A stretch of 42,846 nt of DNA from NCBI GenBank assembly GCA_022705405.1, contig JAKJEN010000006.1:419-43264 (forward strand). Reading direction: 5' to 3'. The first letter of the stretch is position 1, and every line of letters begins with the position of its first letter. Origin of the DNA: Planctomycetota bacterium (lineage in GTDB: Bacteria; Planctomycetota; Phycisphaerae; Sedimentisphaerales; Anaerohalosphaeraceae). The notes beneath the pieces are model-generated. The model was not told where the DNA came from. It did not search any database and saw only the letters and a program-made list of their open reading frames with translations. This document shows, in pieces, positions 4,592 to 40,046 of the stretch. The position numbers and the translations under genes are program-made.

Positions 4592-6004
4592 TTGTTTGAC
4601 GCGCTGACGAGTAAATTCAATGGGATCTTTCATTCGCTCTCCGGCCGCGGCCGCATCACGGAGTCGAATGTGTCAGACGCTATGCGCGAAGTCCGCAAGG
4701 CGCTGCTGGAGGCGGATGTCAATTATCACGTCGTCAAGCAGTTCTGCAAGGATGTACAAGAGGCGGCCATGGGGGCGCAGGTCATCCAGAGTCTGCGGCC
4801 GGGCCAGGTTATGATCAAGATCGTCCATGACCAATTGGTCAAACTGATGGGGCCGGTCGATACCCGGATTTACTACGTCTCGCCGGGGCCTACGATCATC
4901 ATGCTGGCCGGCCTGCAGGGCTCCGGCAAAACCACGACAGCGGGCAAACTGGCTAAATACCTTGTATCCAAGGGCAAGCGGCCCTGTCTTGTCGCCGACG
5001 ATCTCCAACGGCCGGCGGCCATTGATCAGTTAGAAACGCTGGCGCAGCAGATCGAGGTGCCGATCTATACCGAACGGATAACCGACGCGGTCAAAGTCGC
5101 TCGCAAAGGCATCGCTCACGCCAGGGAAATCGGCTGCGATGTAGTGGTTCTGGATACGGCCGGACGTCTGCATATTGACGAAGAGATGATGACCGAGATC
5201 GCCAATGTAGCCAAGGCCGTCGCGCCTCATCAGATCTACCTGGTCTGTGACGCGATGACCGGCCAGGATGCGGTTAACTCGGCCAAAGAGTTTAACGACC
5301 GGCTGGAACTGGACGGGGTGATCCTGACCAAACTGGACGGCGACGCCCGCGGCGGGGCGGCTTTAAGCGTCAAGGCAGTCACCGGCAAACCGATCAAGTT
5401 TATCGGAGTCGGCGAAAAACTTGATAAACTCGAAGAGTTTCATCCGGACCGGATGGCCGGACGAATTCTGGGCATGGGCGATGTGGTGACGCTGGTGGAA
5501 AAGGCCCAGGAGCAGTTTGATGCCGAGGAGACCCAGAAAATGCAGGCCAAGATGGCCAAGGGCACCTTCGGTTTCGATGATTTTTTAAAGCAGATGCAGG
5601 CGATGAAAAAAATGGGCGGCCTGGCCAGTATGCTCAAGATGATCCCCGGGATGAGTCAATTGGGCCAGATGGATCTGGACGATCGGGAGATCAACCGGAT
5701 GGAGGGGATTGTCCATTCGATGACGCCGCAGGAACGGCGCGACCCGGATTTAATCGACGCCTCCCGACGTCGGCGGATCGCCCGGGGCAGCGGGCGGGAT
5801 GGGCAGGAAGTGGCCGCCCTGATCAAGACCTTTAAACGCAGCCGGGATCTGATGAAGTCGCTTTCGGGCGGCGCAATGGGCGGGCTGAAAAGTCTGATGA
5901 CCGGAAAACTGGATATTTTCGGGGCCATGAACAGCGGGCGCAAGGTCAAACAACGATCCAAGCGCAAGCAGCAGCCCCGCAAAAAAAAGAAGCATCGGCG
6001 ATAA
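4592..6004 (+). CDS. ffh: Signal recognition particle GTPase Ffh
   Basis: Ffh binds signal sequences on the ribosome and delivers nascent chains to FtsY at the membrane. An N-domain helical bundle comes first. The G domain follows, with GLQGSGKTT (about 107-115), DTAGRLHID and TKLDGDARGG. The methionine-rich M domain includes FDDFLKQMQAMKKMGG, LKMIPGM and the RNA-binding RRRRIARGSG. The tail is very basic (RKQQPRKKKKHRR). I chose TTG at 4592 (470 residues) because GGAG lies eight bases upstream and the product then starts as Ffh proteins do (FDALTSKF). A GTG at 4547 would add 15 unrelated residues. First gene of a ribosome/secretion operon. No SRP RNA gene was recognised nearby. Confidence 0.95.
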   Translation: MFDALTSKFNGIFHSLSGRGRITESNVSDAMREVRKALLEADVNYHVVKQFCKDVQEAAMGAQVIQSLRPGQVMIKIVHDQLVKLMGPVDTRIYYVSPGPTIIMLAGLQGSGKTTTAGKLAKYLVSKGKRPCLVADDLQRPAAIDQLETLAQQIEVPIYTERITDAVKVARKGIAHAREIGCDVVVLDTAGRLHIDEEMMTEIANVAKAVAPHQIYLVCDAMTGQDAVNSAKEFNDRLELDGVILTKLDGDARGGAALSVKAVTGKPIKFIGVGEKLDKLEEFHPDRMAGRILGMGDVVTLVEKAQEQFDAEETQKMQAKMAKGTFGFDDFLKQMQAMKKMGGLASMLKMIPGMSQLGQMDLDDREINRMEGIVHSMTPQERRDPDLIDASRRRRIARGSGRDGQEVAALIKTFKRSRDLMKSLSGGAMGGLKSLMTGKLDIFGAMNSGRKVKQRSKRKQQPRKKKKHRR

Positions 6005-39316: not shown

Positions 39317-39944
39317 TCATTTTCTACAAACCAGCAGGCCGCCCAGAGCCAGTAAAGCCAAACTGGCCGGTTCGGGGATGATGGTGAATTTGATGTTGTT
39401 GATGGCTGGGTCAAAACGCGGATCTGAAGATTGGTCTAAAAGCTTGATGTTAAACGTGGTATAATCTTCCCAAGTCCCGGTGATTCGCATGGTGGCGGGA
39501 TTATACTTGTAATCCCTGACAAACATTTCGATATGGGCATTAAAAATTGGTTTGCCCTGCTTGTCCCAGCCGACAATCACATCAAACACTTTTTGGTAAC
39601 TGGAAATATAATCAATGTGCCCACCGTAAAGTTTTGCCGTAGAATAGTGTCGTAGTGATAATTCCTCTGTCTGTCCGCCGAAATAATCCAAATGACTATT
39701 ATTTTTAAGCCTAATATCCCATATTCCGCCGTATCCTGCGACAAAAGGAGTGGTTGACCAGACTTCAAGTTTAGATGAATTCCTCATTTCTATTATATCG
39801 GCTCCCCCGCCATCGACGACAAGCAAACCACTTAGACATTCTACATACCCCTCATACCCGGTAATCACCCCCCCCATATTCATATTGAGCAAAGACTGTT
39901 GATAAACAACCGACAATTAAGAAGAATGGAATCATGCTTTTCAT
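39317..39944 (-). CDS. PEP-CTERM protein with frame broken at a G8 tract (phase-variable or pseudogene)
   Basis: An exported protein with a C-terminal PEP-CTERM sorting signal: IPEP, a hydrophobic stretch and a final CRK. The signal peptide MKSMIPFFLIVGCLSTVFA is encoded from the ATG at 39944, supported by GGGGAT five bases upstream. After AQYEY the frame meets eight G residues (39868-39875 on the plus strand as C8) and stops at 39852-39854 after 30 codons. The body (GGVITGYEGYVECLSG and onward) is in a different frame, open from about 39916. One fewer G would join them into a 208-residue protein. It may be slipped-strand phase variation, a pseudogene or a sequencing error. The body is beta-rich with no known domain seen. 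Confidence 0.78.
39868..39875 (-). repeat. G8 homopolymer in the PEP-CTERM gene
   Basis: Eight consecutive C bases on the plus strand (G8 on the coding strand) sit just after the signal peptide codons. The reading frame on the two sides differs by exactly one base. Confidence 0.9.
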
Positions 39945-39970
39945 CTTATCCCCTTTCTTTGGTCTGTAAT

Positions 39971-40001
39971 GCCGTGTACAGATGTAAAATCTGTACACGG
40001 C
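39971..40001. other. Perfect 13-bp inverted repeat
   Basis: GCCGTGTACAGAT (39971-39983) pairs fully with ATCTGTACACGGC (39989-40001) over a 5-base loop. It lies after the beta-helix gene and before the PEP-CTERM gene on the minus strand. No T run follows on either strand. It may be a terminator without U tract, or a regulator-binding palindrome. Confidence 0.6.
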
Positions 40002-40046
40002 TTCAAGTTTACCCAATTATACATTTATGGTCTTGGAATGTCAAGA

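Follow-up and report, generated by a model that had tools for sequence, protein, structure and literature searches.

Most known cases of repeat-driven phase variation come from host-associated pathogens. In the opa genes of Neisseria, CTCTT repeats lie in the region encoding the signal peptide, and single copies of these paralogous surface proteins, which are outer-membrane beta-barrels, are switched on and off. The poly-G form of phase variation is well known, both from Campylobacter (PMC6321876) and from a survey of frame transitions (PMC3711429). The Campylobacter phasome study worked with a cut-off of 7 Gs, and switching is reported for tracts of 8 or more (PMC6321876).

Here we describe a gene on the minus strand of a 42,846-nt stretch of planctomycete DNA (the window; the gene is called the window gene below) in which a frame break at a G8 tract separates a signal peptide from a PEP-CTERM protein body. 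We regard slipped-strand phase variation as the probable explanation: the poly-G tract would switch an exosortase-sorted, probably beta-solenoid surface protein, and the copy in the window would be OFF.

A frame break at a G8 tract

The features of the locus are collected in Table 1. A sequence-only reading of the window had claimed that the ATG at 39944, with its ribosome site and signal peptide, opens a frame that ends after 30 codons, that the body and PEP-CTERM tail are read in another frame, and that the two frames join exactly at G8 so that G7 would fuse them; all of this was borne out. The frame from the ATG reads MKSMIPFFLIVGCLSTVFAQYEYGGGDYRV before its stop at 39852, and its signal peptide, as assessed by composition, is out of the body frame in the G8 state. 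Loss of one G yields a single continuous frame of 208 residues, and the body holds no second stop or frame break.

Table 1. Features of the window gene, with positions in the window.
Feature	Position	Strand	Details
Predicted sigma-70 promoter, TTGACA-N17-TATAAT	40016..40044	-	consensus match 12/12
Inverted repeat, perfect over 13 bp, loop of 5 nt; predicted 5' UTR	39971..40001	-	-23.5 kcal/mol, z -5.9
Shine-Dalgarno-like AAAGGGG	39950..39956	-	ATG 5 nt downstream; from sequence
Signal-peptide frame in the G8 state	39852..39944	-	30 codons and stop; MKSMIPFFLIVGCLSTVFA followed by QYEYGGGDYRV
G8 tract, proposed slipped-strand switch	39868..39875	-	69 nt from ATG
Body frame: family domain and PEP-CTERM tail	39317..39916	-	199 aa from an in-frame TTG; without signal peptide
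VVDGGGAD motif	39795..39820	-	site of G7-G11 in eleven other tract-bearing members
PEP-CTERM sorting tail, IPEPASLALLALGGLLVCRK	39320..39379	-	TIGR02595 16.9 bits (cut-off 16); PF07589 19.6 bits (cut-off 20.7)
Peptide encoded past the tract			e.g. LEVWSTTPFVAGYGGIWDIR

The promoter score was equalled by none of 100 shuffled upstream regions. The inverted repeat, downstream of the promoter and upstream of the ribosome site, occurs once in the genome, and the hairpin it would form has a possible role in mRNA stabilisation, as an operator, or as the terminator of the upstream gene. That upstream neighbour encodes a beta-helix/DUF11 secreted protein, and the downstream neighbours are genes that we take, from their sequences, to be dxr and rseP. 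A positional ortholog of the window gene was ruled out: in all five relatives from the genus, dxr and rseP are adjacent and no PEP-CTERM gene stands beside them within the DNA fetched, so that the window gene has no counterpart at this place. Upstream of dxr/rseP, four of these five carry what is presumably, judging from its sequence, a uvrA-like gene, and the fifth carries another gene.

The G8 tract is the only run of at least 8 Gs in the window, and it is known in one state, from one consensus assembly. The 2.86 Mb, 323-contig assembly has 18 such runs, the majority of the others being in frame in ordinary genes or intergenic. On its own, one G8 run in 43 kb is within what chance could give, and its significance rests on the gene family, in which the coding-region repeats, of a non-triplet unit, are longer than chance would give. 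In the same genome, a G8 also stands in frame within the putative signal peptide of a secretin-like gene (L048, G000:C282:13155-13162).

Poly-G tracts across the gene family

Relatives of the body of the window protein were found in 53 of 148 related genomes, and profile searches added more. Family members were picked by protein similarity alone from Anaerohalosphaeraceae/Phycisphaerae genomes, and about 51 were assessable. A scan of named genomes with the window protein as query gave no match; with a genus alignment it gave six loci, all in metagenome assemblies (Planctomycetota, Phycisphaerae or Anaerohalosphaeraceae), and every assembly that could be named was a MAG. The relative nearest to the window gene shares 52% amino acid identity, and this want of a close ortholog counts against the switch. 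Tandem pairs of family genes are frequent (L056, L054, L057, L058, L071).

Twelve of the approximately 51 assessable members carry a run of G7-G11 within their first 150 nt: G7 in L055 and L180, G8 in L154 and the window gene, G9 in L167, G10 in L054 and L161, G11 in L160, G7 with G9 in a second copy in L158, and G10 with G9 in a second copy in L057. In eleven of them the tract lies approximately 129-144 nt from the ATG and encodes Gly-Gly-Gly, a site at which tract-free members use mixed Gly codons. The window gene has mixed Gly codons there too (longest run G5), and the position of its own tract, away from the family's usual site, counts against the switch, as does the length of that tract, G8 being at the short end of the range for switching tracts. 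One further family member (L023, G009:C162) has no tract within the gene; a G10 precedes its start codon by approximately 200 nt and is possibly a promoter-region tract.

Gly-Gly-Gly codons predispose to G runs, which also counts against the switch, and we weighed the reading in which slippage is simply tolerated: the protein would be dispensable, the runs would have arisen passively at Gly codons, and the out-of-frame copies would be young pseudogenes on the way to erosion. The in-frame members carry six runs of at least 7 Gs, where re-encoding their proteins with the codon choice of members that lack a tract gives 2.6, a modest excess for 7-8 Gs that passive runs could accommodate. For longer runs the excess at this one site speaks against passivity, with three runs of at least 9 Gs against 0.15 expected and three of at least 10 against 0.07. 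Measured against genome density, approximately 33 kb of family genes hold seven runs of at least 9 Gs where 0.05-0.2 would be expected. On the family tree, tract presence requires 10 changes against a shuffled mean of 10.1 and thus does not cluster, with one tract member (L057_1) labelled tract-free by a window cut-off.

The sequence-only reading had also allowed for a homopolymer error, and a sequencing or assembly artefact, in which the true tract would be in frame and the gene ordinary, has in its favour that the data are MAG consensus sequences and that G runs are the usual place of indel errors. This objection loses much of its force now that the tract recurs across genera and in in-frame genes as well, where G10, G10 and G11 show it to be real whatever its exact length. 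In addition, the contig names of the named relatives are typical of short-read assemblies, in which G7-G9 is rarely miscounted, and the tracts of orthologs in two sister species differ by a substitution besides length. We consider an artefact quite improbable.

Reading frames and selection

Six of the tract-bearing members are in frame and six are out, and the break is always at the tract. Among the members without a run of at least 7 Gs, 38 of 39 are in frame; the sole exception (L168/L010) has GGGGGGAG, a broken-up run, where its ortholog has G9. The association of tract and frame gave an exact-test value of 6.6e-5 without this exception and 3e-4, by hand arithmetic, with it; these totals omit contig-end pieces, a 5'-truncated remnant (L064), L184, whose start was unrecognised by the script, and L166, which is broken at a tetranucleotide repeat. 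Save for that one remnant (L064/L148), every frame break falls in a member that has a poly-G tract, intact or degenerate, or a tetranucleotide repeat in its signal peptide. A further possibility is a programmed event on the tract, either transcriptional slippage or ribosomal frameshifting, through which a single allele would yield two products, one short and one full. Homopolymers are indeed slippery and the frame break lies exactly at the tract; but in half of the homologs with a tract the frame is already whole, the out-of-frame ones occupy both shifted frames and most homologs are tract-free, so that we give this mechanism hardly any credence.

A tract-length difference between close relatives could be followed in a single pair, which does not include the window gene. 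These orthologs (G004/G005), from sister species with 94% DNA identity, have G9 and GGGGGGAG, a one-base difference exactly at the tract that combines a substitution with a change in length, and both are out of frame, in different off frames. Over their 157-codon body, which has no other lesion, dN/dS is 0.22 (14 synonymous and 11 non-synonymous changes; p 3e-4), which means that the gene was being read during much of the interval after the two species parted, whatever the date at which each copy left its frame.

These observations bear on the tolerated slippage described above. Consistent with it are the 5'-truncated remnant, the non-syntenic place of the window gene, and the out-of-frame G9 runs in other genes of these genomes. 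Against it, the bodies of out-of-frame copies are free of a second lesion, and promoters are retained in at least two of these copies; the purifying selection on two orthologs in different OFF frames argues the same way, though much of their divergence could predate the last switch. Intact signal peptides were found in the out-of-frame members that have sequence upstream. Of the marks of a pseudogene, further lesions were absent from the window body and relaxed selection from the sister-species pair, and the pseudogene alternative named by the sequence-only reading is weakened accordingly; we think decay unlikely. The on/off reading itself gained support from the homologs with G7-G11 at a fixed N-terminal site, half in frame and half out, and from out-of-frame orthologs that keep an intact body under selection.

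Runs of at least 9 Gs in other genes of the family-bearing genomes were in frame in 17 clear cases and out of frame in 4. The idea that family tracts are out of frame more often than those of other genes was not significant (p 0.14), and the idea that phase variation is confined to PEP-CTERM genes found no support, as such runs, mostly in frame, are found in other genes too.

A second repeat class and recombination

One subclade (L020, L070, L162 and L166) is without the poly-G tract and has tetranucleotide repeats (TTTG/TTGT/TGTT/CTTG) in its signal peptides, seen in L070, L162 (L067), L166 (L022) and L020. L070, L162 and L020 are in frame, and L166 is frame-broken at the repeat, where it is 8 nt shorter than its relative L162. 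With copy numbers as low as 3-8, these are only suggestive of a second, independent repeat class resembling that of Neisseria opa.

Paralogs may also exchange segments. In two species of the genus, L055 (G003, 753-1385) and L056 (its second gene; G004, 1863-2498) share 97% DNA identity over approximately 200 nt, their C-terminal third, and 50-60% before it, a sharp mosaic that suggests segmental exchange.

Sorting signal and predicted fold

The tail of the window protein has the C-terminal PEP motif, hydrophobic helix and basic end of a PEP-CTERM signal, and 27 of 33 family members matched PF07589 at E 0.01. An exosortase is encoded in the window's genome (G000; PF09721, E 1.6e-56) and was present in all 13 genomes tested. 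Outside the tail, no Pfam or NCBIfam model matched the family.

A relative that is in frame was modelled with AlphaFold2 (mean pLDDT 82, pTM 0.73); the model consists almost wholly of beta strands, plus a helix at the C-terminus, and the predicted fold is probably a beta-solenoid. Among solved folds, VIA-align matched the model most closely to pertactin (Z 10.8, rmsd 4.8, 131 residues) and to tapirin-type adhesin domains (Z 10.3, rmsd 2.4, 120 residues; Z 9.9, rmsd 3.0, 121 residues), at sequence identities of 8-17%; a Foldseek search of the PDB with the model gave no significant match. A shared fold shows no function, and many beta-solenoids are not adhesins.

The proposed switch

In the phase-variation reading, mRNA would be made in all cells, to judge from the strong predicted promoter. 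In the ON state the tract length would join signal peptide and body, a beta-solenoid protein of approximately 185 residues would be exported, and its PEP-CTERM tail would be processed by the exosortase. Gain or loss of one G by the polymerase would bring in a stop approximately 30 codons from the start, leaving no surface protein (OFF), which would be the state of the assembled window copy with its G8. Related genes of the same bacterial family would be switched likewise, in most cases by a tract at the Gly-Gly-Gly motif that lies approximately 130-140 nt past the start codon; in one subclade the tetranucleotide repeats of the signal peptides would perhaps serve. We infer that switching would be reversible in living cells and that the product would lie at the surface, where it would serve adhesion or help the cell to escape phages or predators.

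MutS and MutL are present and intact in the window's genome. Loss of mismatch repair was therefore rejected as the cause of long G tracts there, and slippage should be damped, so that switching rates may be low. In a relative, the frame of mutL (L076/L205, G008:C19, approximately 5616-5624) is broken at a run of nine (G9/C9); this could be a mutator state that can be switched, or else an error of assembly.

A broader proposal, which we put forward tentatively as a possibility, is that these uncultured anaerobic planctomycetes keep a repertoire of phase-variable exosortase-sorted paralogs, several per species, independently switched by 5' poly-G or tetranucleotide repeats and reshuffled by segmental recombination. 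Such a repertoire would resemble antigenic variation with no known animal host, perhaps directed against phages or predators.

Comparison with known systems

We found no report of repeat-driven phase variation in PEP-CTERM proteins or in planctomycetes in the open-access literature. The mechanism is already known; the protein family and the phylum appear to be new for it. If the reading is true, a poly-G switch kept at one site throughout a widespread family of exosortase-sorted proteins would mean that stochastic surface switching also pays outside the classical pathogens, and it would give testable biology to the largely uncharacterised PEP-CTERM cargo proteins. The switch is directly checkable in existing metagenome reads.

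Like the exosortase substrates described by Haft et al. (2006, PMC1569441), the window family combines a signal peptide, a C-terminal PEP motif, a hydrophobic stretch and a basic end with an exosortase in the genome, and it adds a simple-sequence-repeat tract and a domain of its own before the tail. Its predicted model, which is mostly beta, aligns with beta-solenoid adhesins such as pertactin and tapirin at Z of approximately 10-11, although sequence identity is low and Foldseek gave no significant match. As in Neisseria opa, the repeats lie in the 5' coding region of a paralog family, here just behind the signal peptide or, for the tetranucleotides of one subclade, inside it; the repeat unit, protein fold and sorting route differ, and in the present family the switch is a proposed one. 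The Campylobacter poly-G loci (PMC6321876) belong to another phylum and other protein families, and the genomes described here have few tracts each, as candidate switches; MutS and MutL are present in the window's genome. What the two share is an intragenic poly-G tract on the coding strand, mostly of 7-11 Gs, that would turn surface-related products on and off by frameshift.
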